Both the position numbers and the translations under genes were made by a program. The notes beneath the pieces were generated by a model. The model was not told where the DNA came from and searched no databases. It saw only the letters and a list, made by a program, of their open reading frames with translations. Shown one piece after another: positions 1-41,748 of a stretch of 64,000 nucleotides of DNA. The number at the start of each line of letters is the position of its first letter. The first letter of the stretch is position 1. Location of the stretch: NCBI GenBank assembly GCA_002011165.2, contig MTMI02000003.1:62001-126000 (forward strand), written 5' to 3'. The stretch comes from Candidatus Mnemosynella biddleae. GTDB lineage: Archaea > Halobacteriota > Archaeoglobi > Mnemosynellales > Mnemosynellaceae.

Positions 1-372
1 TACGTAAAATTGCTTGCAGCACCTTCCTGACGGATTCGTTACCACGCAGTAACCACCATTTCCAATTCCTGTCATATCCTCAACTTCTTTAACGCTTCTA
101 GCTCCTTTTCTTATAGCTTCAATAACATCCTCCTCTGTAACTTGCTTACAGTAACACAACGGCTTTGGAGATCCCTTTTCCTTAAAAAACACCTTTGTCT
201 TCACTTCTTTAACCGTGAAGGTGACTTTTCCGTTGAAATACACGACATTACATTCCGAGTTCGGACAGAAGTAAAAGTCATCGTCGAGCAAATGCCAGTA
301 CTCCGGATTAATGTGGCTCCCTATGGTTATTTTCTTAACTTTCCATCCATCCATTTCACAAACACACTTCAT
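1..372 (-). CDS. CopZ N-domain-like Fe-S/zinc protein (partial, C-terminus outside window)
   Basis: A minus-strand frame opens at an ATG at 372 behind a strong ribosome binding site (GGAGGTGA) and runs off the left edge after 124 codons. Cysteines are seen at residues 3, 5, 36, 41, 73, 75, 109, 118 and 119. The CPNSEC motif, then CYC followed by distant cysteines, matches what I recall of the N-terminal domain of Archaeoglobus CopZ, which binds zinc and a [2Fe-2S] cluster and has a BFD-like fold. In that copper chaperone the domain is fused to an HMA domain; here the HMA domain is the separate gene just upstream (409-651). The ArsR-type gene further upstream suggests a metal-responsive operon. 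The metal (copper, mercury or another soft metal) cannot be read from sequence. Confidence 0.72.
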   Translation of the reverse strand, partial: MKCVCEMDGWKVKKITIGSHINPEYWHLLDDDFYFCPNSECNVVYFNGKVTFTVKEVKTKVFFKEKGSPKPLCYCKQVTEEDVIEAIRKGARSVKEVEDMTGIGNGGYCVVTNPSGRCCKQFYV

Positions 373-408
373 TCTTTCACCTCCTAATTCGGATCTCTTC
401 ATCTGAAA

Positions 409-651
409 TTAGTGTGGCGGAATATGGCTTAGGGACATTCCTATTATCTCCTGCAGGCTGGTTAGTGCCAGATCATAGATAACTATAGGCTCACCTTTGG
501 CGAAGCTAACCTTTGCACTAACGACACCCTTTATCTGCAAAAGAGACTCTCTTATAGCCTCTGCACAACTTTCACAAGTCATACCGTCAATCTTCAGCTT
601 GAGTTCTCGCAGTTCTGAGGTTAAATTGATGTTTAACGTACCATTATTCAT
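409..651 (-). CDS. HMA-domain metallochaperone (CopZ C-domain-like)
   Basis: The protein has 80 residues and one heavy-metal-associated domain with the metal-binding motif GMTCESC (Cys26 and Cys29). It would carry Cu(I), Hg(II) or a similar soft ion to a P-type ATPase or reductase. The frame is open further upstream, but the ATG at 651 overlaps the stop of the ArsR gene as ATGA, which argues for translational coupling and for this start. Together with the downstream CopZ N-domain-like gene it appears to be a split version of archaeal CopZ. No transporting ATPase is within the window; it may lie left of position 1. Confidence 0.8.
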   Translation of the reverse strand: MNNGTLNINLTSELRELKLKIDGMTCESCAEAIRESLLQIKGVVSAKVSFAKGEPIVIYDLALTSLQEIIGMSLSHIPPH

Positions 652-1001
652 CGAACAACATCCTCCAGTATCGCATCTTTTTCGCTCCTCTCCTCTCTCA
701 GAACACCGCAACTAACGAGCCTTTTTTCGTATTCAGCTATATACTCTTCAAGTTCATCGAGAATTCTCTTTACTTCGTCGCTTATTCTGTAAATTCTGTT
801 TTTACCCCTCTGCTCAACATCCACAAACCCACAGTTGAGGAGGCATTTCAAGTTGTGAGACACCCTGCTCTGCTCGTAACCTAACCTCTTACAAATTTCG
901 GAAACGTTAAGCTCTCCTTCTTTCCTGAGAAGTGTTACAATGTCGAATCTTGTTTTGTTGGATAGAACATCCGCGAAGAGTTTCCATGATCCATATATCA
1001 T
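648..1001 (-). CDS. ArsR-family winged-helix transcriptional regulator
   Basis: The protein has 117 residues. It shows the ArsR order: an N-terminal helix, 'LSNKTRFDIVTLLRKEGEL', a recognition-helix region QSRVSHNLKCLLNCGFV, then a wing with 'RGKNRIYRIS'. Cysteines near the recognition helix (KCLLNC) and near the C-terminus (SCGV) could be metal ligands, as in metal-sensing ArsR/SmtB repressors. It is the first gene of a three-gene run with the HMA protein and the CopZ-like protein, so it probably represses its own operon until metal binds. An ATG at 1001 with a TATA-like element 20-26 nt upstream suggests a leaderless mRNA. Confidence 0.82.
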   Translation of the reverse strand: MIYGSWKLFADVLSNKTRFDIVTLLRKEGELNVSEICKRLGYEQSRVSHNLKCLLNCGFVDVEQRGKNRIYRISDEVKRILDELEEYIAEYEKRLVSCGVLREERSEKDAILEDVVR

Positions 1002-1030
1002 ATGATGAAACTATCATTACATGTATATAA
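1002..1030 (-). promoter_or_regulatory. Promoter and candidate operator of the metal operon
   Basis: Just upstream of the ArsR start, inverted arms ATGAT (1002-1006) and ATCAT (1013-1017) flank a 6-base spacer. A TATA-like run (TTATATA on the minus strand) lies at about 1022-1028. The inverted repeat sits between the TATA element and the start codon, where a bound repressor would block initiation. The arms are short, so the operator call is tentative. Confidence 0.45.
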
Positions 1031-1180
1031 GACTTCCGTAAGCTTGAGATCGTAGCGTCAAAATTAGCGCTTACGAATTTGCGGAACGTATCAGAAAAGT
1101 TTGTTATCAGATCAGCTCAAAATTTGAAGCACATTTCAAAAACTTCGCTTACTTTTTGGGTCAGTCACTTGCTGTCGGAA

Positions 1181-1936
1181 CTACTTCTCATGGAGCAAGG
1201 TTATAGGATCCGACAACTCTGCTCCCGCCATGAAAAACACTCCAAGTATCATGCTGAACACCGCAGTAAAGACGGCAAGATACTTGTAAATGGATTTTCC
1301 AGCACTTACGTATCCGTAAGCTCCGAGAACGCCCATTAGCGTATTCGTTATAATGAGGCCCAAAGCGAAAGCTATTACGACGATAGCTGCAATTTCACTG
1401 CTTCTCATTCCTGCTGTAAGTGTTAAAGCAAACATATACATCTGCGACGGTGTTTCAGCTCCGATCCCGTGAATCATTCCTATGGTATAGGCAGATACGT
1501 TTCCGTAATTGAGAACAACCCTTCTCTTTTTTATAGGTCTACCGGTGAGTTTTGCAATCACCCAGTCAAATACTCTCAAAATGCCGTAATAAATAACGGC
1601 CCACCTAGGAAGCAGTCTCAGATGATCACCATGTCGGTGCAAAGCATAGAATACGTAGAGTCCGAGAACGAGTAACGTAAATCCCACAACTCTCGCCATT
1701 AGGGCGTCGAGATTTTTAGGAAATGACAACCCAATGAAAAAGGCGGAAAGGGCTATACCAGTCACCACACTCGCGTGACCTAATGCATACAAGAAACTCT
1801 GAACAATTCCCTTCTTCTTGCTCGTGTTGGTACTGGTGATGTCGAATATAGCTGCTATATGATCCCAATCCACGCCATGTCTCATCCCTACTGCCAAAGC
1901 AAGGAGGACAAGAAAAATTTCATGCTGGAATCTCAA
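1181..1936 (-). CDS. NiCoT-like nickel/cobalt membrane transporter
   Basis: The polytopic protein has about 251 residues and roughly six to seven hydrophobic segments. The first carries RHGVDWDHIAAI, which resembles the RHAxDADHI metal signature of NiCoT (HoxN/NixA) permeases; YALGHASVV matches the second family motif. It would import Ni2+ or Co2+, which fits the nickel enzymes HypF and LarA in this window. I prefer a TTG start at 1936 because a perfect GGAGGTG (1942-1948) sits five bases upstream. An in-frame ATG at 1963 is the alternative and adds nine residues. The family is shorter here than HoxN (about 350 residues), so the exact subfamily is open. Confidence 0.7.
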   Translation of the reverse strand: MRFQHEIFLVLLALAVGMRHGVDWDHIAAIFDITSTNTSKKKGIVQSFLYALGHASVVTGIALSAFFIGLSFPKNLDALMARVVGFTLLVLGLYVFYALHRHGDHLRLLPRWAVIYYGILRVFDWVIAKLTGRPIKKRRVVLNYGNVSAYTIGMIHGIGAETPSQMYMFALTLTAGMRSSEIAAIVVIAFALGLIITNTLMGVLGAYGYVSAGKSIYKYLAVFTAVFSMILGVFFMAGAELSDPITLLHEK

Positions 1937-1963
1937 GGTAACACCTCCATAACGTTTATTCAT

Positions 1964-2232
1964 CTTTCGTATTAACTAATCAATACTTGATAGCACAGAA
2001 TATTTAAATTGTTTACTAATTTTAAGCATGAGTTTAAGTTAGCTGAAATTTGTCGTAGCTGCTAACAACGGTCTTTTTGATGGGAGAACTAAGAGTCAAA
2101 ACGTTTATTATACATTTACTGTGTTAAAATAGAAACTATGAAGATTAAGAAAGTGAACCGAATAAGAGTTGGAATCTGTAAATGCCACAGTTCCTGCAGT
2201 TAAATTTATTTTTTATTTTTTGGGTGATATGA
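1964..2232. other. Intergenic region with divergent promoters
   Basis: This A/T-rich region lies between the transporter gene and the rhodanese gene. A TATA-like run (AATTTAAATATT read on the minus strand, about 1998-2010) is suitably placed for the transporter. On the plus strand an AT-rich stretch (2205-2222) precedes the rhodanese start. I see no RNA gene or coding frame. Confidence 0.35.
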
Positions 2233-2629
2233 ATGTCTAGGAAATTTGTTATTGTTCTCGCTATCGGCGTCATAATTGTTTTTCTGCTCTACAACAGCAA
2301 CGTTTTCTTTTCGAGGGAAAAGGCATACATCTCGATATCACCGAGAGACTCCTACAGACTCATGGAGGATGAAAATGTTTTCGTGATAGACGTCCATGTC
2401 CCAGAGCAGAAACATCTTCCAAGAACTGACGCATGGATACCTTACGAACAGAATTGAGGAATTCGTGAATCTTCTGCCGAAAGATAAAAGTATCACGATT
2501 CTCGTTTATTGCAGATCCGGTCACATGAGCCAAATAGCAGCGTCGAGGCTCGCTGAAATGGGTTACAAGAATATTTACGAACTCGATGGTGGAGTCTTGG
2601 CGTGGCAAAGAGAGGGATTACCGTATTGA
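2233..2629 (+). pseudogene. Exported rhodanese-domain protein, interrupted by a frameshift
   Basis: Two overlapping frames make one rhodanese (sulfurtransferase) protein. The first (2233-2457) has a signal or anchor segment (residues 4-21) and the start of the rhodanese domain, ending in DAWIPYEQ. The second begins in register at IEEFVNLL and continues through the active-site loop YCRSGHMS with its catalytic Cys to GGVLAWQ at 2629. Removing one A at about 2449-2452 joins PYEQ to IEEF. The joined protein would be about 131 residues, normal for a secreted single-domain rhodanese. The active site is intact, so this is either a recent mutation or a one-base sequence error. Confidence 0.8.
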
Positions 2630-2677
2630 TTTTGTTGACCATCGTCTATCGAAAAATTATTTTGACTAAAAAACTTT

Positions 2678-3409
2678 TTAAAAGAACCTCAACCCAGGAA
2701 GCTCTCTGAAGTACAGCATGAGAATTGCACCGAAGATGGGCTGGTGCATAAGATAAACCTCTAGAGTGTGCTTGCCGAGAAAAATGACATAACGAGATAT
2801 TTCTGGAAGTGAAATTTCGAATCTTCTAACACCTTCTGGATAAATTAGAGATCCAACTCCAACTCCAATTAAGAAGACCCCGAACCAAGGAAAGATCGGA
2901 AAGAAATCGAACGTAAAAAATGGAACTGGAGTTACACCGAGAGGAAGTAGGAGGAGATTGTCTGAATGAATACGCTCGACTAAGATTTTGCCAGCTAAAA
3001 ACAGCGGAGCGAGGATTAAATTTTTTGCTTCAAACTTCAGAAATGGTATTACCAGAACGCTTGCAACACCGAGGAAGTGCAGAACTCCAAAATATATCGT
3101 CCCTTCCTCGAAGAAGGCCTTCGTGAAGGCTGTTATAACCAAACCCAGACCGAATAGTTTTGCAAATCGTTTGAAGTATTTTTCATACCCTTTCCACCTG
3201 AAGTGGGAGACCCATACCGAAACACCGGAAATGAAAACGAACATCGACGCGGTAAATAGCGCAAAAACTCTCCAAAATTGATCAAACTCTGAATAACCTG
3301 TAAAATATTGCAGATCAGTTACGAAATTGGAGATCAGCATCATTATGAGAGCAACGCCTCTGAAGAAATCTATTTCGGGATATCTTCTTTTTTGCTCGGA
3401 TTTTTCCAT
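2678..3409 (-). CDS. DUF1624-type membrane acyltransferase (heparan-alpha-glucosaminide N-acetyltransferase-like)
   Basis: The integral membrane protein has 243 residues. The N-terminal motif RYPEIDFFRGVALIMM is typical of the DUF1624/acyltransferase-3-related family, which transfers acyl groups to sugars using an external acyl donor. Seven or so hydrophobic helices follow, and the C-terminal part has LGKHTLEVYLMHQP, the family's conserved His-containing end. The open frame extends upstream into the tRNA-Tyr gene, but that part is not protein-like. The ATG at 3409, next to the conserved motif and about 28 nt after a TTTTTTAAG element, is the better start. The substrate is unknown. Confidence 0.65.
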   Translation of the reverse strand: MEKSEQKRRYPEIDFFRGVALIMMLISNFVTDLQYFTGYSEFDQFWRVFALFTASMFVFISGVSVWVSHFRWKGYEKYFKRFAKLFGLGLVITAFTKAFFEEGTIYFGVLHFLGVASVLVIPFLKFEAKNLILAPLFLAGKILVERIHSDNLLLLPLGVTPVPFFTFDFFPIFPWFGVFLIGVGVGSLIYPEGVRRFEISLPEISRYVIFLGKHTLEVYLMHQPIFGAILMLYFRELPGLRFF

Positions 3410-3588
3410 GCTTGGCTCAGAACTTTTTAGTTTTTTCTTAAAAAATCTTTGCAAAGAACTTTGATTACTGCAAATATGCCCAATTTTATTGAGTTCCCCG
3501 TGGAAAGAAGGGTTTACAAATTTCATCTCTGTTTTTCCGCCAAAAAAGAAGAGTAATAAAATTACGGGGAATTGTACCCCGAATAATA

Positions 3589-3673
3589 TCCCGCCTCCCG
3601 GATTTGAACCGGGGACCACGCGGTTTCCGCTACCTAACTACAGCCGCGCGCTCTACCTCTGAGCTAAGGCGGG
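3589..3673 (-). tRNA. tRNA-Tyr (GUA) with a 13-nt intron
   Basis: A cloverleaf is visible on the minus strand: acceptor CCCGCCT pairs with AGGCGGG, followed by discriminator A. The D-stem is GCTC/GAGC, the anticodon stem CGCGG/CCGCG, and the T-arm CCCGG-TTCAAAT-CCGGG. The C1-G72 first pair is the archaeal tRNA-Tyr identity element. The anticodon loop starts C-T-GTA and is 20 nt long instead of 7, so a 13-nt intron sits at or near the usual 37/38 position. No CCA is encoded. The gene lies upstream of the acyltransferase gene on the same strand. Confidence 0.93.
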
Positions 3674-3749
3674 CACCCGTATTTCTTTAGACTTTCGTGT
3701 TTATAAAAATGTTGTCCTCAATACTTTCAAACTTTTTTAAGCTTTTTTA

Positions 3750-4493
3750 ATGAAGAGAGATGAAATGGATTACATGAACTTGAAAGGAAAAGTAGCTCTT
3801 ATCACCGGAGGGAGTAGAGGAATCGGAAGGGCTATAGCTGTTAAACTCGCTGAAAAGGGATGTAAAGTTGTTGTAAATTACAGAGGAAGAGAAGAAGAGG
3901 CGAAAAGGACGCTCAAAATGATTGAAGAGTTTTCTGAAGGACTGGCACTCAAAGCAAATGTGGGGAATAGGGAAGAAGTAAGAAAAATGGTGGATGAAAC
4001 TGCAAGAGTTTTTGGAGGCATAGATATTCTAGTGAACAATGCAGGAATAGTGGGAGAGCACAGAAGTATTAGAGAGATTACGGATGAAGAGTGGAGAGAA
4101 GTTCTCAGAGTTAATCTCGATTCAATGTTCATAGTCACGCAAGAAGTTCTCAGATACATGAAGAAAGGAAAAATTGTTAATGTATCTTCAGTTGCAGGGA
4201 GGACAGGGGGGAGTGTTGGTGCTCATTACGCAGCCTCGAAAGCCGGAATAATTGGATTTACATTCTCTTTGGCAAGAGAGCTTGCTCCGGACATTCTCGT
4301 GACTGCAATCGCTCCTGGGCCTGTTGAAACTGAGATCATAGATGAAGAGACAAAGAAAAAGCTTGCTACACTCTCTCTTCTAAATAGAGTTGCTCAACCT
4401 GAAGAAATTGCTCATGCGGTAATCTTCCTTCTGGAGAACGACTACATGACAGGGGTTGTTCTTGATATAAATGGGGGAAGATATATGATCTAA
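3750..4493 (+). CDS. Short-chain dehydrogenase/reductase (FabG-like)
   Basis: The protein has 247 residues, the usual length for a classical SDR. It has the cofactor motif TGGSRGIG near residue 20, NNAG near 90, and the catalytic Ser (VSSVAG) followed by YAASK. It reduces or oxidises a carbonyl/alcohol with NAD(P); 3-oxoacyl reductase is the nearest named family, but the substrate is not determined. Archaea do not need FabG for bulk lipids. The first ATG (3750) is used; an ATG at 3774 (MNLKGKVALITGG) matches the family start better and suits a TATA-like run at about 3735-3748. The 3' end overlaps the convergent GlcF-like gene by four bases. Confidence 0.85.
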   Translation: MKRDEMDYMNLKGKVALITGGSRGIGRAIAVKLAEKGCKVVVNYRGREEEAKRTLKMIEEFSEGLALKANVGNREEVRKMVDETARVFGGIDILVNNAGIVGEHRSIREITDEEWREVLRVNLDSMFIVTQEVLRYMKKGKIVNVSSVAGRTGGSVGAHYAASKAGIIGFTFSLARELAPDILVTAIAPGPVETEIIDEETKKKLATLSLLNRVAQPEEIAHAVIFLLENDYMTGVVLDINGGRYMI

Positions 4494-32166: not shown

Positions 32167-33600
32167 ATGATGAAAAGCATAACCTCCTTCGAAATGGATA
32201 TCATAGACATGAATTGTGAGTATCACGGTCTTTCGAGACTTCAGCTCATGGAAAACGCGGGAAGAGGAATTGCAGAGGAGATTGAAAAGAGAGGATTTAA
32301 AAGAGTTGTAATCTTCGCAGGTAAAGGGAACAATGGAGGTGACGCTTTCGTTGCTGCTAGACATCTGAGAGGAGAAATTGAGATCTACCTTCTTGGAAGA
32401 GAGAGCGAGATAAGAACAGAAATAGCGAGAAGAAATTTTGAGATCCTAAAAAGAAGTGGGATCAAAATAAGAGAGATAACAGACTCCTCAATGCTTCCTG
32501 AGAAGGTAAAGGCAGATGTTATCGTTGATGCTATCTTCGGAACTGGAGTAAGGCACCCGATCAGGGAGCCTGAAGCGAGTGCCATTGACCTCATCAACAG
32601 AAGTGACGCCTTCATTCTATCTGTGGATGTTCCGAGTGGAATGAATCCAGATGACGGAAGTGGAGAGAAGTTTGTGCGAGCTGATATCATAGTGACATTT
32701 CACAGAATGAAGAGAGGACTTGAAGGATTTCAGAATGTCGTGATTAAGGATATAGGCATCAGCGAAAGACTTGAAGAGCTTTGTGGACCCGGAGATGTTA
32801 AGATACTCCTGAAGAGGAGAGATGATTCCCACAAAGGAGATAATGGAAGGATACTCGTGGTCGGAGGTGGAGAATTCACAGGAGCGCCTGCACTGACTGC
32901 AATGGCAGCTCTGAGATGTGGAGTTGATTGGGTCACTATAGCGACTCCAGAGAAGATAAAGGAGATTGTCTCATCATTCTCTCCGAATCTCATTGTAAAA
33001 AGCTATAAAGGAGAGATTCTCTCTCCAGAGAATGTTGAATTTCTGAAGAATCTCGTTGAAAAACACGATGTCACGATTATCGGAATGGGTCTTGGAAGAA
33101 AAAAGGGGACGATAGAAGCAGTGAGTGAGATTTTGAAGATGAACGGAAGATTTGTAATTGATGCTGATGCTCTTCACTCAATTTCATCTCCTCTGAACTG
33201 TGAAGCCATTCTCACACCTCACAGAGGAGAGTTCAGAGTTCTTGGAGGAGAAACGAAGGAGACACTTGAGGAGATGAAAGAGGAGGTCAGAAAAGTTGCA
33301 AAAGAGTTGAAAGCAACAATTCTCCTGAAAGGTCCTAAAGACTTGATTTCGGATGGAGAGAGAATTAGAGTGAACCTCACCGGAAATGCAGGTATGACAG
33401 TTGGAGGCACTGGAGATGTTCTTGCAGGAATTGTTGGAGCTCTCTGGACAAAGGAGCCAGCTCTTTATGCCGCTTCCGGTGGAGCTTTTCTGTGTGGATT
33501 GGCTGGAGAGCTTGCTTACTCAAAAAAAGGTTATTCACTTCTTCCAACAGATATTATAGAGAGCATTCCAGAAGCTCTGGAGAGGATAAGATGGATTTAA
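32167..33600 (+). CDS. nnr: Bifunctional NAD(P)H-hydrate epimerase/dehydratase
   Basis: The protein has 477 residues in two domains. The N-terminal YjeF_N epimerase (residues 1-215) has AGKGNNGGDAFVAARHL and VDAIFGTG. The C-terminal ADP-dependent dehydratase, a ribokinase-like fold, has GRILVVGGGEFTGAPALTAM, DADALH, LTPHRGEF and the catalytic NAGMTVGGTGDVLAG. Together they repair hydrated NADH and NADPH, which form readily at high temperature. The moaC start overlaps its stop by 10 bases. Confidence 0.93.
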   Translation: MMKSITSFEMDIIDMNCEYHGLSRLQLMENAGRGIAEEIEKRGFKRVVIFAGKGNNGGDAFVAARHLRGEIEIYLLGRESEIRTEIARRNFEILKRSGIKIREITDSSMLPEKVKADVIVDAIFGTGVRHPIREPEASAIDLINRSDAFILSVDVPSGMNPDDGSGEKFVRADIIVTFHRMKRGLEGFQNVVIKDIGISERLEELCGPGDVKILLKRRDDSHKGDNGRILVVGGGEFTGAPALTAMAALRCGVDWVTIATPEKIKEIVSSFSPNLIVKSYKGEILSPENVEFLKNLVEKHDVTIIGMGLGRKKGTIEAVSEILKMNGRFVIDADALHSISSPLNCEAILTPHRGEFRVLGGETKETLEEMKEEVRKVAKELKATILLKGPKDLISDGERIRVNLTGNAGMTVGGTGDVLAGIVGALWTKEPALYAASGGAFLCGLAGELAYSKKGYSLLPTDIIESIPEALERIRWI

Positions 33601-34070
33601 AGTTCACGCATATAAAAGATGGGAAGATTTCGATGGTTGACATTACTGAAAAAAAGGACGTGCGAAGAGAGGCGATTGCAGAGGGATTTATAAAGCTTAG
33701 AAGAACCACGATAGAAGCAATAAGGAAAAACGAGGTTGCGAAAGGAGACGTTATCTCTGCCTCGATCATCGCAGGGGTTATGGGTGTCAAGAAGACTCCA
33801 GAAATCATACCTCTCTGCCATCAACTGAACATAACTGGAGTGGATGTTGATGTGGAGATCGAAAAGGATGGTGTAAGAGTGATCGTGAAAGTCTCATCAG
33901 TCGGAAAGACAGGAGTTGAGATGGAGGCTCTTACGGGCGTCTCATGTGCTCTTCTTACAATCTGGGACATGGTAAAGTCGCTTGAGAAAGATGAGAGGGG
34001 TAATTATCCAGAAACTAAAATTGAGATGATTAAAGTAGTGGAAAAGAGGAAGGAAAATGGAGACGAATGA
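33591..34070 (+). CDS. moaC: Cyclic pyranopterin monophosphate synthase
   Basis: The protein has 159 residues. Conserved motifs are IMGV-type MGVKKTPEIIPLCHQL and GKTGVEMEALTGVSCALLTIWDMVK, with the C-terminal DERGNYPETKIEMI. It acts with MoaA to form the molybdopterin/tungstopterin precursor. The ATG at 33591 is chosen from homology; the open frame upstream lies inside nnr. The secretion ATPase gene overlaps its 3' end by 14 bases, so the pilus-like locus may be co-transcribed. Confidence 0.93.
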   Translation: MDLKFTHIKDGKISMVDITEKKDVRREAIAEGFIKLRRTTIEAIRKNEVAKGDVISASIIAGVMGVKKTPEIIPLCHQLNITGVDVDVEIEKDGVRVIVKVSSVGKTGVEMEALTGVSCALLTIWDMVKSLEKDERGNYPETKIEMIKVVEKRKENGDE

Positions 34071-35532
34071 ATATGTAGAAGTAGAAAGATATTGGTTAAA
34101 TGAACCCTATTGCTATGCTTCCATAAAATATCATGAAGATCTTCACGATTACTCTTACTTCGTTGTCGAACCAGAGTTAAATGATGACGAGAGAATCATA
34201 CTTCACGAAATAACAGAGAATTTGAGAGATGTTTTGATTTCCTCTGAAATAGAGTCGGAGAATAGCAGTAAAGAAGAAATAATTAGAAGTGTTTTCGATG
34301 AAATAATTTCAGACTACGGTTTTAATCTGAACGAGGCTCAGTATGAGAAAATATTATACTATATTCTCAGAGACTTTCTGGGATTTGGAAAAATAGATGG
34401 TCTGATGAGAGACAGAATGATCGAAGACATATCTTGTAATGGTCCCAGAATCCCTGTTTTTGTCTACCACAGAAACTACGGAAGCCTCGAAACAAACATC
34501 ATTTTCTCAGATGAGAGAGAATTGAACTCCTACGTTATAAAACTAGCTCAAGAAGGTGGAAAACACATCTCAATAGCCGAACCAATAGTGGATGCCACCC
34601 TTAAGGATGGGTCGAGAATTCAACTAACACTCGGAGATGAAATAACAACAAGAGGCAGCACTTTTACAATAAGAAAATTTCAGGACATTCCAATAACTCC
34701 TGTAGATCTAATAAAATGGAATACTTTTTCAGCTGAAGAAATGGCCTATTTCTGGCTCTGTGTTGAAAATAAAAAGAATGTTCTATTTGTGGGTGGCACT
34801 GCTTCCGGAAAAACATCCTCTCTAAATGCAATTTCATTCTTCATACCTCAAAAATCAAAGATAGTTTCAATTGAAGATACAAGGGAGATAAAACTTCTCC
34901 ACCCTAATTGGATCCCAAGCGTCACCAGAGAGACATTTATAGGAGGTGAAAGGGGATCAGTAGACATGTATGACCTTCTCAAAGCTGCTCTGAGACAGAG
35001 ACCAGAATATATTATAGTCGGAGAGGTTAGGGGTTCTGAAGCTGTTACTCTTTTCCAAGCAATGGCCACGGGGCATGCAACTCTTTCAACACTTCATGCT
35101 GATTCGATCGAAGCTGTGATTCACAGGTTAGAGAATCCACCAATAGGTGTCCCGAGAGTTATGATGGAATCTCTCAACATAATCAGCATTCAATCTTTAG
35201 TTCATCGGGACAAAAAGAGGATGAGGAGGAACACAGAAATCTCGGAGATATTGAGGATAGAACCGGTTACAAGGAATGTGAGGACTTCAAGAGTATTTCT
35301 ATGGGACCCTGTCAGAGATGCTCACGTCAGAGTTGGAGGGTCAAAAGCTCTGGAAAGTATAAAAACCATGAAGGGGTGGGAGGCAGAAGATCTAGAAAGA
35401 GAGCTGGAAGACAGAAAAAAAGTGCTTCTTCATCTAGTTTCAAATGATATAACAGACTATAAGGAGATATGGAAAATAATACATGCATACCAGTCAAATA
35501 AAGAAAGGTTGATGGAAAAGCTGGGATTATGA
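34057..35532 (+). CDS. Type II/IV secretion (archaeal pilus-type) ATPase
   Basis: The protein has 491 residues. Walker A is FVGGTASGKTSS (around 244-255), the Asp box SIEDTREI (271-278), Walker B PEYIIVGEVRG (316-326) and the His box TGHATLSTLHAD (338-349). The ATPase looks active. It belongs to the GspE/FlaI/TadA superfamily that drives pilin assembly or secretion. It heads a run with the membrane platform protein and five prepilin-like genes. The archaellum motor gene FlaI is related, but no other archaellum gene (flaG, flaF, flaC/D/E) is here, so a pilus-like role is favoured. Confidence 0.9.
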   Translation: METNEYVEVERYWLNEPYCYASIKYHEDLHDYSYFVVEPELNDDERIILHEITENLRDVLISSEIESENSSKEEIIRSVFDEIISDYGFNLNEAQYEKILYYILRDFLGFGKIDGLMRDRMIEDISCNGPRIPVFVYHRNYGSLETNIIFSDERELNSYVIKLAQEGGKHISIAEPIVDATLKDGSRIQLTLGDEITTRGSTFTIRKFQDIPITPVDLIKWNTFSAEEMAYFWLCVENKKNVLFVGGTASGKTSSLNAISFFIPQKSKIVSIEDTREIKLLHPNWIPSVTRETFIGGERGSVDMYDLLKAALRQRPEYIIVGEVRGSEAVTLFQAMATGHATLSTLHADSIEAVIHRLENPPIGVPRVMMESLNIISIQSLVHRDKKRMRRNTEISEILRIEPVTRNVRTSRVFLWDPVRDAHVRVGGSKALESIKTMKGWEAEDLERELEDRKKVLLHLVSNDITDYKEIWKIIHAYQSNKERLMEKLGL

Positions 35533-37466
35533 AAAAGGTAAATATTAGTTTGATATCAATATCTCTGAAGCTTTTTGGAAATTTGGCTGAGCGTAGAGAG
35601 CGGAAATATGAGGGTCTAAGGAGGGAGTTACGAAGAGCCAGAATACCGATAACTCTTCAAGCGTATGTCTCGCTGACTTATTTTGCATGCTTTCTTGCTT
35701 TTGTAATTTTTCTTCTGATAGGTTTCCTCATAACTTACATGATTGTGGTGATTAGAGGTCTTCCAGAAGTGATTTTTCCTGTTGCAATCCCACAACCACT
35801 TTATCTGCTGAAAGAGTATAGAGATACAATAGTAATGATTTTGTTACCTCCAATAATTGGTTTTGCAGGATCTCTCGTCATTTACTCTCTTTTCCTCTTC
35901 TACCCCAAAATGAAGGTCTCGGACAGAAGAACAAAGATAGATAACACCCTTCCCTATGCGGTGATGTATCTATACGCCCTCTCTCAAGGAGGAATGAATA
36001 TACTTGAAACTTTTCGATCGCTCAGCGAAAAAGTAGAATCATATGGAGAAGTTGCAAGAGAAGCTCTTATGATAATCAGAGATATGGAGTATTTCGGAAA
36101 GGACTTCAGAACTGCACTTGCCGATTGCATGGAGAGTACTCCATCCTCAACATTCTCGGAGTTCCTCCACAATCTTTTGAGCATAATTGAGAGTGGAGGC
36201 AATATCTCTGCATTCATGAAAGAGAAAGCAGAAGATTACTTCCAAAAAGCATTGGTCAAGCAAAAAGAATTTTTAAGTACTTTAGAGCTCATGGCTGAGA
36301 GTTACGTAACCGCTTTCGTAGCAGCGCCTCTTTTTATAATCATAATCTCGAGCATCATGAATGTAATGGGATCAATGAATCTGCTTCTTCTTAAGCTTCT
36401 GGTGTATCTTGTTCTTCCAGTTGGAGGGCTCATGTTTGCTTTTATTGTACAACTCATCTCAGTTGAGAATTCTGAAGACTTCACTTTATTGAAAGTGGAA
36501 AAAAGAGATGAAAAACTGGAGGAGAAACTAAAGGGCAAGGAGATATATAAGAAGATAGTTCGGGGAAGAAGAAAAATCAGGCTTAAAAAATTGATGAGAA
36601 ATCCATTCAGATATTTCATTGAAAGACCTATAGATACTCTTTACATTTCTCTTATTCCTGCACTTATCCTCATTTCTTTTTCACTCTACTCATTCCGTAC
36701 TTATCCTCTCAACATATTGATGAGATATATTGATGACTACATATTTTTCTCGATACTTATAGCACTTCTTCCATTTGCCATTTTTCAGGAAATTTACATG
36801 AGGAATAGACGAAAAATAGAGGAAGAAATTCCAGAGATGTTGAGAAGGCTAGCCAACATAAATGAGACTGGGATGAACATAATTCAATCCGTGGAAATTC
36901 TTGCAAACACTCATACAGGATATTTGAGAGAAGAGATCGTGAAGATGTGGAGAGACATTAAATTGGGTAACAGCATAACAGATGTCTTCACGAGATTTGC
37001 AAATAGACTGAAAATACCCTCGGTAACTAGAACTGTAACTCTCATCACAGAGGCGATAAAATCCAGCGGAAACATAGTTAATGTCTTAAATATCGCAGCT
37101 AATGACGCATATAATGCGGTTACTATGAAAAGAGAGAGAAAAACCAACATGCTAACATACGTAATGATTATTTACATTGCCTTCTTTGTTTTTATTGGCA
37201 TAGTTTTCATACTTTTCAAATATTTTATACCAATTATGTTTGAAATATCTCCCAGTGCTCCTGGAATTGGTTTTGGAGGAGGCATTTCTTTAAAGAGTGG
37301 AAACGTAGATACAATAAAAATGATCTTATTCCACGCTTCCATGATTCAAGGATTTTTCTCTGGAATTAATGCAGGAGTTATGGGAGGAGAGGGAATGAGA
37401 GGAGGCGTAAAACACTCTCTAATTTTAACTTCTTTTGCTTACGCTCTTTTTGCTATATTCGTATGA
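35529..37466 (+). CDS. Membrane platform protein with two T2SSF domains (TadC/FlaJ-like)
   Basis: The protein has 645 residues, with two halves that each hold a GspF-type cytoplasmic domain and membrane helices. First domain: YALSQGGMNILETFRSLSE, then FSEFLHNLLSIIESGGNISA. Second domain: MLRRLANINETGMNIIQSVE, then ITEAIKSSGNIVNVLNIAAND. Helices cluster near residues 40-130, 255-310, 365-420 and 540-645. It anchors the ATPase and moves pilins out of the membrane. Its ATG overlaps the ATPase stop. The double domain is typical of archaeal pilus loci such as those in Halobacteria. Confidence 0.88.
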   Translation: MKKVNISLISISLKLFGNLAERRERKYEGLRRELRRARIPITLQAYVSLTYFACFLAFVIFLLIGFLITYMIVVIRGLPEVIFPVAIPQPLYLLKEYRDTIVMILLPPIIGFAGSLVIYSLFLFYPKMKVSDRRTKIDNTLPYAVMYLYALSQGGMNILETFRSLSEKVESYGEVAREALMIIRDMEYFGKDFRTALADCMESTPSSTFSEFLHNLLSIIESGGNISAFMKEKAEDYFQKALVKQKEFLSTLELMAESYVTAFVAAPLFIIIISSIMNVMGSMNLLLLKLLVYLVLPVGGLMFAFIVQLISVENSEDFTLLKVEKRDEKLEEKLKGKEIYKKIVRGRRKIRLKKLMRNPFRYFIERPIDTLYISLIPALILISFSLYSFRTYPLNILMRYIDDYIFFSILIALLPFAIFQEIYMRNRRKIEEEIPEMLRRLANINETGMNIIQSVEILANTHTGYLREEIVKMWRDIKLGNSITDVFTRFANRLKIPSVTRTVTLITEAIKSSGNIVNVLNIAANDAYNAVTMKRERKTNMLTYVMIIYIAFFVFIGIVFILFKYFIPIMFEISPSAPGIGFGGGISLKSGNVDTIKMILFHASMIQGFFSGINAGVMGGEGMRGGVKHSLILTSFAYALFAIFV

Positions 37467-37509
37467 AAAATAGAAATTATATAGGAGTTTAAAGAAAGAT
37501 AACTCTAAA

Positions 37510-38217
37510 ATGGAAATAGATGAATTTGATGTTCCAGAGAGGAGGAGAAAGAGAGTTTCTACGGGTATAGAGTCACTTGATTTCGCACTTAGAGGTGGAA
37601 TTCCCGAAACTTCGATGGTGAGTGTAGTTTCAGATCCGAGATTCTCTATAGATTCCCTCCTTTTTCGCTTCGCATCTGTGAGGAGAACTTATTATGTTAG
37701 CGTGACGAGAGATCCAAAATACATAAGTTTGGAAATGGATGAAGAGCTGAGAAGAAATGTAAAGTTTATCGATCTGTATTCACATTACTACTCAGATGAA
37801 TTTTTTGAAGATGATGAAAGAGTGCTCTTAACAATGGAAAATGAAATAAAGAGACTGAGAAGTGCGGAAAGGGAGGCAAATATAATATTCGAAAACTTTT
37901 CCTTTTTTCTGAATTTTAATCTCCCAGAGAAATATATATGGAGACTTCTTAGAAAGATATACGAGATCTGCAAAGAAAGATGCATGATTGCCTATCTTCA
38001 TCTTGTAAAAAATGATGAAAGTGGACAGAAAATTGCGCATATAGCCGAATTAAGTGATGTGGTAATTGAAATAGAGCTTGAAACTACAGCTACCGGATAC
38101 ATTTACAGATTATCCATACCAAAGATGCGGGGAGGGGCACTTATAGGAGATTTCATGAAACTTTACGTAACTGAAAGTGGAAAATTAGAAGTGGATACTA
38201 CGAGGGATATCGTGTAA
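37510..38217 (+). CDS. RecA/KaiC-like protein without a P-loop, in the pilus-like locus
   Basis: The protein has 235 residues. It opens like a KaiC/FlaH-type ATPase: RKRVSTGIESLDFALRGGIPE. Where the Walker A motif should be (GxPGxGKT) it reads VVSDPRFSIDSLLFRF, without the GKT. The Walker B region is also weak (NIIFENFSFFLN). It is probably a structural or regulatory pseudo-ATPase. In archaella FlaH is the RecA-like partner of the motor ATPase. Halobacterial pilus loci carry a similar RecA-like protein (DUF7504 as I recall). A 43-base gap precedes it, and the first pilin-like ATG follows its stop by 10 bases. Confidence 0.78.
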   Translation: MEIDEFDVPERRRKRVSTGIESLDFALRGGIPETSMVSVVSDPRFSIDSLLFRFASVRRTYYVSVTRDPKYISLEMDEELRRNVKFIDLYSHYYSDEFFEDDERVLLTMENEIKRLRSAEREANIIFENFSFFLNFNLPEKYIWRLLRKIYEICKERCMIAYLHLVKNDESGQKIAHIAELSDVVIEIELETTATGYIYRLSIPKMRGGALIGDFMKLYVTESGKLEVDTTRDIV

Positions 38218-38227
38218 GGTGAGTTTC

Positions 38228-38932
38228 ATGAGAGTTAACTCAGGTGTAACTCCCATTCTCGGATATATACTACTCCTCACAGTAATTATAAGCGTTATCA
38301 CGATGGTTTATTATGGAGGATTACCAATAATAGTCTCAAAACAGGAGAGCGCGATGGTTGAAAGCTCCGAAAAAGCTTTTTCAGATGCTTTAACTCTCAT
38401 GTGGGATGTAGCAAAAAGTAACTCTCCAGAAATAAGAAGAGAAGCACATTTAAAGATGGGTGGAGGTTTAATTTATTTGGATAACGCTACCGCTCGCTTC
38501 AGAATAATCTCAGATGGAACGGTGATTTACGATGATTACCTTGGTTCCCTAATTTGTAAATATGATAAAAAAGGTGTACTAATTGAAAATGGCGGTGAAA
38601 TCAGATTCTCGGGAGATAAGGGTGTGATGATAGAAGAGCCGAGAATATATGTGAGCGATGACGGAAGTCTCATCCTTTCAATAATGAAATTAAGCGGTAA
38701 TCAAACTTCAAAATCTGGAAATGAGATAAGAGTGATTTTTGGATTTCTTGGATATTCCAGATTTACGAAAGAGGGTGCTCAAAATGTAGTGATAAGCATA
38801 GAAAGCAATTATAAAAATATTTATGACGATTTTTTCCAGTCTATCGGCTTTTCTGGTGAAAATGGAGAGTATTCAGGGACATTTAACAGGGTGGAAATTA
38901 ATATCTACGAGGTGAAGGTGGAAATCAGATGA
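38228..38932 (+). CDS. Pilin-like protein 1 (archaeal class III signal, DUF7289-like)
   Basis: The protein has 234 residues. It begins MRVNSGVTPILGYILLLTVI, with a short positive leader, a Gly before the predicted cleavage site, and a long hydrophobic H-domain, as in archaeal pilins and archaellins. The rest is extracellular and beta-rich in appearance. This start (G-V-x-P-I-L-G-Y) is like the Halobacteria DUF7289 family, from memory. A GTG at 38219 would add three residues and weaken the leader. The next gene overlaps the stop by four bases. Confidence 0.78.
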   Translation: MRVNSGVTPILGYILLLTVIISVITMVYYGGLPIIVSKQESAMVESSEKAFSDALTLMWDVAKSNSPEIRREAHLKMGGGLIYLDNATARFRIISDGTVIYDDYLGSLICKYDKKGVLIENGGEIRFSGDKGVMIEEPRIYVSDDGSLILSIMKLSGNQTSKSGNEIRVIFGFLGYSRFTKEGAQNVVISIESNYKNIYDDFFQSIGFSGENGEYSGTFNRVEINIYEVKVEIR

Positions 38933-39333
38933 GGGATGAGGGCGTCTCTGTCATAGCAGAGTACATGTATATGATTCTCATTTTAACAATTTTCCTATTC
39001 TTTTTCTTGCTATTTTTGAATGGAATTTTTTCAGAAGTGATTAAAGATAATCTTGAGGAGGGTTTGAAGGAAGTCGGAAATGAAGTTGCTGAAAAAGCAA
39101 TTTATCTTTCATCTTTAAATGAGACTGCTAGAGTGAGACTCGAAATACCTAAGGAGTTGGGAGGGAAAGAATACAAAATATATTGGAAGGGAGGCAACAT
39201 TATAGTTGAGATGGAAGAGATGGATTTAAAAATTGCGATAACCTTTCCCATAGAATTAAAAGGTGAGATATATAGCAGAGGTGAACCGTATATTGTGAGA
39301 AACGTAAGCGGAGAATTGGTGTTAGAATCATGA
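38929..39333 (+). CDS. Pilin-like protein 2 (DUF7266-like)
   Basis: The protein has 134 residues. The start MRDEGVSVIAEYMYMILILT shows a charged leader, Gly at the likely cleavage site and a hydrophobic helix to residue 33. The remainder (RVRLEIPKELGGKEYKIYWK) looks like a small beta domain. It overlaps its neighbours by four bases on both sides (ATGA). The N-terminus resembles DUF7266 of halobacterial pilus loci as I recall it. Confidence 0.72.
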   Translation: MRDEGVSVIAEYMYMILILTIFLFFFLLFLNGIFSEVIKDNLEEGLKEVGNEVAEKAIYLSSLNETARVRLEIPKELGGKEYKIYWKGGNIIVEMEEMDLKIAITFPIELKGEIYSRGEPYIVRNVSGELVLES

Positions 39334-40196
39334 GAGAGAGTGCTCAGACCAGTCTTGATTTTCTAACTGCGATAACTCTATTTTCCTTGGTCACAGGATA
39401 TGCGGTCTTCAACCTTATCTCCGTAACCGCTCCGATAAACGACTTTGAGGAAGTTTATAAAGAAGCAGAAAGGATTACAGAACTTCTAATAACGTCACCC
39501 GGATTATGGGAAAACGGAAGTAACTCGGGAAACGACTGGGAAAATCATCTAAACGATGTCGTGTATGTGGGTCTTAATTCAGGAGATCTTTATTTGAATG
39601 CTCTCTCAGAAGAGAAAATAGAGGCTCTTTCAAACAGTGATCTTGAATTGAACACATCCTTTCATTATCGATTGGAGATGACTTCTGAGAGAGGGGACAT
39701 CTGGATTATAGGAGAGGATCTCCCAGAAGGAAGAGAAATTGCCAAGATTGTGAGAATAATAACAACAGTTTTTGAACGAGCTGTGATAGAGGGAAATGAA
39801 CTGGCAGGTCCGAATCCAGAAAATGATAAAGTGCTAATAACGATGAACGAACCTCCTTCTGAAGATATAGAGATCATAATCACAAATTTCGATCCATCTC
39901 AGATACCTTTTAAGATAAACTACGTGAAGTTGAACGGAGTCCAGCAGAGTAATGGAGAGTACTTTCACCTCTATTTAAATGAGGTTGAAACTGAGCTTCC
40001 AGTAACCATCTCTTCTTCCGATGCAGTGATAAGAATAGTAATAACTCTGGATAATCCGTCTCTGAATCTTTCTGGTTCAAATGAGATTGAGATAAAATTT
40101 GTAGATTATCTGATCAAAGAGGGAACTGTCAGCTATGAGGAGAGTTATGAGAGAGTTTTTTCAAGGGGGGTGATGACGCTCTGGATGTGGAGATAG
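39330..40196 (+). CDS. Pilin-like protein 3 (DUF7287-like N-terminus, long ectodomain)
   Basis: The protein has 288 residues. It begins MRESAQTSLDFLTAITLFSL: a charged leader, then an AQTSLDF motif and one membrane helix. The following 250 residues are extracellular in prediction, acidic and probably beta-rich. The AQTSxDF start is what I remember for DUF7287 of halobacterial pilus loci, although the ectodomain here is much longer than those (about 150-180). It may be a larger minor pilin or tip protein. The ends overlap the neighbours by four and ten bases. Confidence 0.7.
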   Translation: MRESAQTSLDFLTAITLFSLVTGYAVFNLISVTAPINDFEEVYKEAERITELLITSPGLWENGSNSGNDWENHLNDVVYVGLNSGDLYLNALSEEKIEALSNSDLELNTSFHYRLEMTSERGDIWIIGEDLPEGREIAKIVRIITTVFERAVIEGNELAGPNPENDKVLITMNEPPSEDIEIIITNFDPSQIPFKINYVKLNGVQQSNGEYFHLYLNEVETELPVTISSSDAVIRIVITLDNPSLNLSGSNEIEIKFVDYLIKEGTVSYEESYERVFSRGVMTLWMWR

Positions 40197-40663
40197 ACGA
40201 AAATGGACAAATTTTCACTTTAGAAGCCTTAATTGCGTCGCTCATCCTTCTAACCTCAATAATCTTCGTCCCTTATGCTATCACCCACTTCATCACAGAA
40301 AATTCTGAGACTCAATTGTTTTACTATTCGCAGGATTTGCTAAGAGTTCTCTCAAATAAAGAGAGCTATGAAAATGCCTCGGAATTGGAGAGAATTGTAA
40401 GTGACTGGTCCACAGATGAGATGAGAACATTTCTGGAGAGCTTTCTTCCGGAAAATGTTGGATATTATGTAGAAATTCAATGGGACAACGGATCTACGAA
40501 ATTTCTCGGAGATAATGTTCCAGAGAATGCCGTATATTCAAAGATTCCGGTTGTAATTCACCAACCCTCCCAGCAATTCATAGAAAATACCGGAATACAA
40601 GATAGGAGTGAAACTGATCTCTATTGCATTGTAGAGGTGGTTTTGATATTATGGTACAGATGA
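40187..40663 (+). CDS. Pilin-like protein 4 (DUF7288-like)
   Basis: The protein has 158 residues, starting at GTG (40187) inside the end of the previous gene. The N-terminus is MEIDENGQIFTLEALIASLIL; Gly followed by Q-x-F-T-L-E-A and a hydrophobic helix is a type IV pilin-like layout with Glu at position 5 or so of the mature protein. This matches the halobacterial DUF7288 start from memory. The ectodomain is acidic and has no cysteine until Cys152. Confidence 0.72.
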   Translation: MEIDENGQIFTLEALIASLILLTSIIFVPYAITHFITENSETQLFYYSQDLLRVLSNKESYENASELERIVSDWSTDEMRTFLESFLPENVGYYVEIQWDNGSTKFLGDNVPENAVYSKIPVVIHQPSQQFIENTGIQDRSETDLYCIVEVVLILWYR

Positions 40664-41046
40664 GAGATGAAGGACAAATAATAATAATAGTTGCATTTTT
40701 AATGACTTTCGCAATTATATCAGTTGTGATAACTGTAAACGAAATATCAGCAATCCAATTAACAATTGAACATGATAGGTTCGACGGCTATTACAGAGCG
40801 GTAAGAATGATCGTCTATGAGGAGATTAAAAAAGCTATGGACGAGAATGACTTGAATTACCTTAATTCTTATCTCCAATCTCTGGAAGATGAATTGAGAA
40901 GTGTGGGATTGAAAAACGGATATTGGTTAACGTTATATTTGAAAAATGTTGAAGTTGTAGATGGAAATATAATTTCTGTTACTTTGGAACTTAAGATGAG
41001 GGATGAACTCCACGAATATTCGGAAGAGCTGATAATTCTGAGGTGA
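40660..41046 (+). CDS. Pilin-like protein 5 (DUF7261-like)
   Basis: The protein has 128 residues from an ATG that overlaps the previous stop as ATGA; two upstream starts (40651 and further) are less likely. It begins MRDEGQIIIIVAFLMTFAII, the same charged leader-Gly-Q pattern as pilin-like protein 4 followed by one membrane helix. The rest is helical (NYLNSYLQSLEDELRSVGLK) then beta-like. It is the last gene of the pilus-like run; the sugar isomerase starts seven bases later on the same strand. The resemblance to DUF7261 is from memory. Confidence 0.7.
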   Translation: MRDEGQIIIIVAFLMTFAIISVVITVNEISAIQLTIEHDRFDGYYRAVRMIVYEEIKKAMDENDLNYLNSYLQSLEDELRSVGLKNGYWLTLYLKNVEVVDGNIISVTLELKMRDELHEYSEELIILR

Positions 41047-41052
41047 TCAGAA

Positions 41053-41748
41053 GTGGAGCTCGAACTCGGTGGAAAGAAGATAAAGGGAGAAGCGAGATAT
41101 CTGGATGAGATGAGAGAAGTTCTTTTCGATAAAGAATATACGAAAAAAGCTGAAAATGAACCACTTTATTACATGTACCGAGATATTTCCTTGAGCAGAA
41201 GAGATAAGGAGATCTTAGATAGATTCAGAATTAGATATGATATTACAATCATTCCCCCAAAAACTCTGGGAGTGGAATACATTAAAACAAAAGGTCATTA
41301 TCATCCAGAGATAAGGAGAGGCTTGAGTTATCCGGAGCTTTATGAAGTTCTCAGCGGAGAGGCTTGTTTTTTGCTTCAAAAACTTGAAGGAGATAAGATA
41401 ACAGATGTTGTAGTTATAGAAGCTTCAGAAGGGGATAAAATCATGATTCCCCCAAATTATGGTCATGTGACAATAAATAAAAGTAGAAAAGTGCTGAAGA
41501 TGGCAAATATCGTTTCAAGAGAGTTTTCCTCAATTTACAGGCCATATGAAGAGATGAAGGGTGCTTGTTACTTTCTAATTTTGGATGGATGGGTGAAAAA
41601 CGAAAGATATGGAGAAATTCCAGAAATTAGGATGGGAGAGAAATGGAAGGAAATCAAAAAAAGAAAGGAAATTTACTCACTTATTAGAGAAGAAGATGAA
41701 ACTCTCAAAATTTTCAACTTTCCCGAAGAATGGAGCTGGGAAATCTAA
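41053..41748 (+). CDS. Cupin-type glucose-6-phosphate isomerase
   Basis: The protein has 231 residues. It carries the archaeal cPGI metal-binding motif TKGHYHPE and YPELYEVLSGEA with downstream GHVTINKS, the two cupin motifs that bind Fe2+ or Mn2+. It interconverts glucose-6-phosphate and fructose-6-phosphate. It starts at GTG (41053), right after the last pilin-like gene. The length is slightly above the usual 190, because of a C-terminal tail rich in Glu and Lys. Its end overlaps the convergent marker-2 gene. Confidence 0.88.
   Translation: MELELGGKKIKGEARYLDEMREVLFDKEYTKKAENEPLYYMYRDISLSRRDKEILDRFRIRYDITIIPPKTLGVEYIKTKGHYHPEIRRGLSYPELYEVLSGEACFLLQKLEGDKITDVVVIEASEGDKIMIPPNYGHVTINKSRKVLKMANIVSREFSSIYRPYEEMKGACYFLILDGWVKNERYGEIPEIRMGEKWKEIKKRKEIYSLIREEDETLKIFNFPEEWSWEI

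Follow-up and report, generated by a model that had tools for sequence, protein, structure and literature searches.

Described euryarchaeal pilus loci and the locus of Mnemosynella

The 2016 survey of Makarova, Koonin and Albers distinguished two types of clade-2 euryarchaeal pilus, the second of which is typified by the PilB4 locus of Haloferax volcanii and has its own set of pilins; it also associated KaiC-family ATPases with pilus loci and described arCOG02911 as a shared minor pilin of variable length (PMC4858521). Both PilB4 and PilC4 are expressed (PMC4371748); detection of PilB1 and PilB4 was confined to one minimal medium (PMC7305310), and pilB4-pilC4 decrease during HFTV1 infection (PMC12542753). 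Deletion of the clade-4C genes pilB1-pilC1 of H. volcanii lowers adhesion (PMC6491452). Here we describe a related locus in a stretch of 64,000 nucleotides from Candidatus Mnemosynella biddleae, a deep-branching member of the Archaeoglobi, which is referred to below as the window (G000:C3:62001-126000, where G stands for genomes, C for contigs and L for sampled loci, G000 being the source genome, which has 1.5 Mb and is nominally complete). Eight adjacent genes in it code for an assembly ATPase, a platform protein, a RecA-like protein and five small prepilin-like proteins, and judged by their sequences they very probably specify a type IV filament machine.

The locus appears to belong to a known kind of type IV pilus, catalogued in 2016 as euryarchaeal clade 2, PilB4-type. 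An earlier note on this DNA had called the function of a similar halobacterial block not established; the system has a place in that catalogue (PMC4858521), and the related PilB1-C1 locus has an adhesion phenotype (PMC6491452). What the present analysis would add is a fixed five-part set of prepilins, the signatures of its members and the large heads grafted onto some of them; a full-text literature search for the numbers of the corresponding DUF families found no paper. We favour, with confidence and doubt in about equal measure, an adhesive pilus in which the five prepilins would form a priming or tip complex and a PilA-type pilin the shaft.

The PilB4-type clade-2 pilus (HVO_1160 locus of H. 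volcanii) resembles the window locus probably in its clade-2-like motor, and in the presence of DUF7287-7288-7261-7266-7289 beside the haloarchaeal motor. However, the order in the window is 7289-7266-7287-7288-7261, the window ATPase lacks the extra halobacterial domains, and the operon holds a gene for a RecA-like protein without a P-loop. The clade-4C PilB1-C1 pilus shows the order motor-7289-7266-x-y-7261, with DUF7289, DUF7266 and DUF7261 in common, but DUF7263 and DUF7262 replace DUF7287 and DUF7288 of the window, and its ATPase is distant. The bacterial Com pilus (comGA-comGG), as far as the parts list alone is compared, likewise has one ATPase, one two-domain platform and five pilins per operon, with the peptidase elsewhere, and four of its minor pilins probably make up a complex at the tip (PMC10790768). 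In contrast to it, the window lies in an archaeal genome with PilA elsewhere, without ComEC and with an extra RecA-like gene. The archaellum operon (arlB-J) also brings together an ATPase, a platform and a RecA/KaiC-like protein (ArlH), but archaellin, ArlC/D/E, ArlF and ArlG are absent at the window locus, and ArlH keeps the P-loop that the RecA-like protein lacks.

Five prepilin families with individual signatures

In each of the five small proteins a leader with charged residues ends in Gly or Ala (position -1) and is followed by Gln or Val at +1 and a single hydrophobic helix. A prepilin pattern is seen at the sequence level for the five families in 36 blocks that contain all of them, with G/A at -1 and a mean hydropathy above 2 in every family. 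Beyond this common pattern the N-terminus of each family bears a signature of its own, with positions counted here from the predicted cleavage site in those 36 blocks. DUF7287 has Asp at +5 in 36/36, including the window; in DUF7288 position +6 is Glu in all 36 and position +4 is Thr in 35; DUF7261 starts with Gln at +1 in 36/36 and shows no acid at +5/+6. DUF7266 begins with V-S and carries Glu at +6 in 18 of the 36, and DUF7289, which also begins with V-S, has Glu at +3 in 41 of 58 copies and usually Gly at +6. Five parts that are distinct and individually conserved disfavour the idea of five interchangeable shaft subunits.

Homology to known pilins is detected for two of the families. The DUF7289 profile matches the solved type IV pilin PilA5 (8qqj, 7e-4), and the DUF7266 profile matches an archaeal pilin (8fj5, 0.0044) and Natrinema PilA2 (0.096); DUF7266 is itself homologous to DUF7289 (hhalign 94.5%, 8e-8). 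DUF7289, being of variable length and often duplicated, fits the published description of arCOG02911. DUF7287, DUF7288 and DUF7261 are taken as probable prepilins from their signatures and synteny.

Conservation of the five-member set

Loci were gathered through matches to DUF7289 or DUF7266 or through the ATPase, so that presence of the other three families was no condition of sampling. They form a convenience sample, for which the seeds of the hidden Markov models were partly chosen by eye and the start codons of relatives were assigned mechanically. All five families occur in 36 of the 45 blocks that hold three or more members, with one of each and only DUF7289 duplicated. The nine incomplete blocks include cases at contig edges, haloarchaeal clade-4C-type loci in which DUF7263/7262 replace 7287/7288 by Pfam, and L185 (split by strand), L181 (cut by the clustering rule) and L177 (without DUF7261). 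The genes follow the order 7287-7288-7261-7266-7289 in 31/36 five-family blocks, and intergenic gaps are at most 20 nucleotides in 174 of 188 cases. The window order differs from this commonest one, is found complete elsewhere only in L189 and matches the clade-4C arrangement; the haloarchaeal loci L178 and L179 carry the same five families as the window, of which one escapes detection by Pfam in the window. Nine of the 36 blocks have a motor gene (ATPase or platform) within 4 kb and the other 27 have none, a count limited for some loci by one-sided flanks shorter than 4 kb; thus the set can apparently act with a motor encoded in trans. Motor and set share one operon in the window, L047, L052, L055, L059 and haloarchaea.

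Across 295 genomes of the phylum, DUF7266 was found in 171 and the DUF7288 profile in 196 (both in 154, one only in 59, neither in 82), and the families are present in 83-86 of 107 sampled genera. The named controls Methanocaldococcus jannaschii and Sulfolobus acidocaldarius gave no match. The five prepilins thus appear to be a fixed set across this archaeal phylum, which is newly added by the present analysis, and chance is excluded by the Pfam E-values and by the conservation of the same five genes as a set in dozens of genomes. A division into two clean subtypes by the length of DUF7261 was rejected: short and long forms cluster on the DUF7288 tree but do not make up one clade, with 5 changes. 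Two or more five-prepilin blocks stand in tandem within 20 kb in L180 and L181 (G122 and G277).

Grafted heads

Several relatives carry large additional domains on one or another member of the set. DUF7266 has 767-970 amino acids (aa) in 11 five-family blocks of Archaeoglobi (L042-L047, L049-L051, L056 and L058) and in the edge-cut L041; the two long forms scanned, those of L042 and L045, contain VWA and PKD domains, and most long forms have the motif D.SGSM of the metal-ion-dependent adhesion site (MIDAS) type. In L183 the VWA domain is carried by DUF7261, in L161 DUF7288 reaches 1,726 aa with FG-GAP repeats, and some copies of DUF7289 have 446-571 aa. The modular tip pilin PilB of Streptococcus sanguinis is comparable in that a VWA domain with MIDAS has been grafted onto the DUF7266 or DUF7261 of relatives, but it differs from the window's own members, which are small and lack a VWA module. 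The VWA-bearing pilin of S. sanguinis is adhesive and fits at the filament tip only (PMC8179133).

Heads of 800-1,700 aa are poorly suited as shaft subunits, and it is chiefly because they are grafted onto different members, and because of the tip-only VWA pilin of S. sanguinis, that we consider a tip complex. The tip role would reach the members in the window through their family membership. As separate observations, DUF7289 and DUF7266 are accompanied in both L146 and L161 by an ATPase, a pair of platform genes and a protein of about 1,700 aa that opens with a DUF7288-like module of pilin type; the bin name 'Proteobacteria' given to L161 is doubtful, since its genes look archaeal. The protein of 1,333 aa encoded by L171 at 240-4241 begins like an archaeal pilin, also contains PKD, Ig-like and DUF2341 domains and is probably a giant modular pilin.

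The eight-gene operon of the window

The genes of the window and their two neighbours are as follows, with Pfam E-values in brackets.

33594-34070, + strand: moaC (MoaC, 1.3e-49), left neighbour outside the system, marking its left edge
34057-35532, + strand: PilB/VirB11-type assembly ATPase, 491 aa (T2SSE, 1e-36), with an intact Walker A motif, GGTASGKT
35529-37466, + strand: platform protein PilC/TadC, 645 aa, with two T2SSF domains in one chain (T2SSF, 3.3e-40)
37510-38217, + strand: RecA/KaiC-like protein without a P-loop, 235 aa (DUF7125, 1.9e-13; KaiC, 2.7e-5)
38219-38932, + strand: prepilin 1, DUF7289 (1.9e-23), predicted cleavage between NSG and VTPILGYILLL
38929-39333, + strand: prepilin 2, DUF7266 (1.9e-6), predicted cleavage between DEG and VSVIAEYMY
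39330-40196, + strand: prepilin 3, DUF7287 (1.5e-3, below the curated cut-off of Pfam), assigned by profile and synteny, predicted cleavage between ESA and QTSLDFLTAI
40187-40663, + strand: prepilin 4, DUF7288 (2.5e-9), predicted cleavage between ENG and QIFTLEALIA
40660-41046, + strand: prepilin 5, DUF7261-like, assigned through profiles made for this analysis and through gene order, predicted cleavage between MRDEG and QIIIIVAFL
41053-41748, + strand: cupin-type glucose-6-phosphate isomerase (GPI, 2.3e-46), right neighbour outside the system, marking its right edge

The eight co-directional open reading frames occupy 34057-41046, about 7 kb, with coordinates checked on the sequence. Four-nucleotide overlaps occur at 35529, 38929, 39330 and 40660 and a 10-nucleotide overlap at 40187; a gap of 1 nucleotide at 38218 and a single gap of 43 nucleotides upstream of the RecA-like gene complete the picture. 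The ATGA at 40660-40663 was read directly in the sequence, and this overlap sets the likely start of prepilin 5 at 40660. The earlier note had described eight tightly packed genes on one strand, five proteins with a leader, Gly or Ala followed by Gln or Val, and a helix, and a RecA homologue without a P-loop, all of which hold on inspection of the reading frames, the 36 blocks and the RecA-like family. Its assignment to halobacterial families stands in part: Pfam identifies DUF7289, DUF7266, DUF7288 and, weakly, DUF7287, while prepilin 5, for which the Pfam scan gave no match, was placed in DUF7261 only by profiles made for this analysis, and DUF7504, which the note had also listed, matched none of the window proteins and none of the haloarchaeal proteins scanned.

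The genes for NnrD and MoaC (32167-34070) adjoin the left edge of the operon, and moaC ends 14 nucleotides inside the ATPase gene; therefore read-through from a housekeeping promoter is possible. A link between the operon and the methanogenesis genes nearby, which the note had mentioned, is not demonstrated. A defence system was ruled out, PADLOC giving no match.

The motor

In a phylogenetic tree of the ATPases, in which the row of ArlI was too long for placement, the window ATPase is separated by a branch with 100/100 support from the clade-4C-type PilB1 ATPases of L174-L176 and falls within a large group that holds the PilB4-type ATPases, on an unresolved branch of its own. The three loci probably represent the PilB1 type, an assignment made from sequence distance and PMC4858521 and not through a named H. 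volcanii record. The window ATPase is 60% identical to its homologue in Archaeoglobi archaeon JdFR-42, to which the ATPase of G056, from the same class, is identical, and it shows 25% identity to a haloarchaeal clade-4C-type ATPase.

A RecA-like protein without a P-loop

In the window RecA-like protein GGIPETSMVSVVSDPRFSIDSLL stands at the position expected for GxxxxGK[ST], and this Walker A motif was found neither there nor in the other members of the family that were checked; at this position the family has '[AS][ND]P..MPE.FLYQFA' or a similar sequence. The family profile A2 nevertheless matches archaellum FlaH (4yds, 6e-4) over positions 12-230, nearly its full length, and the KaiC-like protein 2zts (8.6e-5). 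Matches of any strength occur in 55 of the 59 genomes of the class, the weaker ones perhaps being other KaiC-like proteins. In the window, L059 and L199 the gene adjoins, or lies close to, genes for an ATPase and a platform, and shorter forms take such a position in L052, L055 and L116; no conserved partner genes were found in its neighbourhoods in other genomes.

In addition, KaiC-like genes lie divergent from a PilB-type ATPase gene in the methanogen and ANME (anaerobic methanotrophic archaea) loci L151, L153, L159, L162 and L169. L151, L153 and L162 have a tandem KaiC-like pair, in which one P-loop is intact and the other decayed, e.g. LLLGELGAGDTEF; with these pairs, pilus loci offer another instance of dead RecA-like proteins. 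L116, on a contig labelled Nitrosotalea, combines a DUF7289 gene, an ATPase, a platform and a P-loop-less RecA-like gene, which may be explained by transfer or by a wrongly binned contig.

The rest of the machine and an empty site in a sister genome

The source genome encodes a complete archaellum operon on C10 (L035), with its own ArlI and with an ArlH whose Walker A motif is intact; thus neither membership of the window locus in an archaellum nor an archaellum motor identity for its ATPase applies. One prepilin peptidase (PF06847/PF01478) is encoded at C10:11197 (L039), and a stand-alone PilA with a textbook helix at C3:321782; such a PilA is present in 52/59 genomes of the class. The note's remark that peptidase, major pilin and archaellum genes are missing is therefore right for the locus and wrong for the genome, which has all of them elsewhere. 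On C11 a PilB3-like ATPase is accompanied by a split platform but by no pilins. A second five-prepilin set lies at C7:271562-275037 (L037 7563-11038), with no motor gene in the surrounding 19 kb; its DUF7261-type member has 364 aa, and the set is conserved in G058 (L054). ComEC was not found in the source genome.

In G058, a sister genome, the genes for NnrD, MoaC and the cupin-type isomerase are consecutive (77, 86 and 77% identity, with 9 nucleotides between the last two), and all eight genes are absent between moaC and the cupin gene. G058 is the sole other genome of the genus that was compared, a draft with 94% completeness and 7% contamination in which the moaC-cupin junction lies on one contig. 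Its best match to the window ATPase (52%) stands beside a split platform, and for the RecA-like protein it has no better match than one of 1.4e-7. Since the eight genes are missing jointly, they came or went as a group; this defines the extent of the unit and ties the RecA-like gene to it. The neighbours of moaC differ in eight more distant genomes of the class and do not decide between gain and loss. The suggestion of an ancient, broadly kept machine thus holds within the phylum, where the families reach most sampled genera, but not for the two controls without a match, nor for the eight-gene block, which was gained or lost within the genus. A mobile-element origin of the block was not adopted: no flanking repeats were found around it, and its GC content of 0.373, against 0.42 and 0.40 in the flanks, differs too little to argue from.

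Proposed function and alternative explanations

We propose that the prepilin peptidase encoded elsewhere would cleave the short charged leaders from the five prepilins, which the ATPase (34057) and the double platform (35529) would then drive out of the membrane. The five would act as one heteromeric set that starts the filament and ends at or near its tip, as the minor pilins H-I-J-K do in bacteria, while the shaft would consist mainly of the PilA-type pilin encoded elsewhere. Our confidence that they form such a tip or priming complex is evenly poised, as it is, separately, for adhesion as the function; attachment to surfaces or to other cells would be the most likely role of the pilus. The RecA-like protein could be a dead relative of ArlH and KaiC that no longer binds nucleotides and sits on the ATPase-platform complex as a structural adaptor, a role that we put forward tentatively. 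With similar reserve, DUF7287, DUF7288, DUF7261, DUF7266 and DUF7289 may be seen as a fixed priming or tip complex equivalent to H-I-J-K and exchangeable among motors, some of which would have a dead RecA-like protein in place of ArlH.

Several points weigh against this proposal. The PilB4-type set has been argued to have its own major pilin (arCOG03926), independent of PilA (PMC4858521). The profiles of DUF7287, DUF7288 and DUF7261 match no solved pilin; structures were predicted for single chains with few sequences, and of the two models one, of DUF7289, is unusable for a fold search (mean pLDDT 42), and the moderate one, of DUF7288 (mean pLDDT 68), gave no Foldseek match better than E 0.2. 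The window's own five prepilins are small and without an adhesin domain. Furthermore, the RecA-like gene is mostly away from type IV pilus genes in other Archaeoglobi, which weakens its assignment to the machine. It could be a chance neighbour, the functional unit being the seven pilus genes, as its solitary position beside unrelated genes in most genomes of the class would allow; we regard this as doubtful, because the gene lies inside the operon, is missing with the other seven in G058 and recurs adjoining or close to genes for an ATPase and a platform in L059, L199, L052, L055 and L116.

The main competing explanation of the prepilins is a self-contained pilus, in which DUF7289 or DUF7266, that is one or two of the five, would form the shaft and the rest would be minor pilins, with PilA unused. 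It is close to the published model of the PilB4 type, for which an own major pilin was predicted (PMC4858521); DUF7289 and DUF7266 alone show detectable pilin homology and are mutually related, and the motor shares an operon with the set in the window and in the other loci named above. Yet the lengths of DUF7266 in 12 blocks and of some DUF7289 copies would be awkward in a shaft, a motor is missing from the vicinity of most blocks, and PilA is nearly universal in the class, so that we hold this explanation to be rather unlikely. The ATPase, platform and five pilins might instead build a short or retractable filament of the comG kind that brings DNA to the surface, since the parts list equals that of the comG operon, with ComGA, ComGB, five pilins and a distant peptidase (PMC10790768), and since transformation of Methanoculleus thermophilus is said, in a passage of PMC10133366 citing Fonseca et al. 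2020, to need a type IV-like pilus. The pilus at work there may come from another locus, however, the grafted VWA, PKD and FG-GAP heads suggest adhesion, and the genome lacks ComEC, although naturally competent archaea lack it as well; a role in DNA uptake thus seems improbable. Type II secretion uses five pseudopilins, GspG-K, of which GspK is not known to have the acidic residue. By analogy, five prepilins served by one ATPase and one platform might constitute a short piston for protein export, with DUF7261, also without the acidic residue, in the place of GspK. We think this very improbable, as archaea lack the context of outer membrane and secretin, no linked substrate genes were seen, and relatives bear adhesin-type heads.

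Implications

The five Pfam families are annotated as of unknown function, yet they co-occur in most genera of the phylum. If they are regarded as a single complex that is predicted to act at the tip, five unknowns become one hypothesis, testable in the tractable hosts Haloferax, Methanosarcina and Methanoculleus. If it is true, archaeal pili would use a multi-subunit priming complex as bacterial ones do, and in the RecA-like protein without a P-loop a motor-associated ATPase would have become a structural component.

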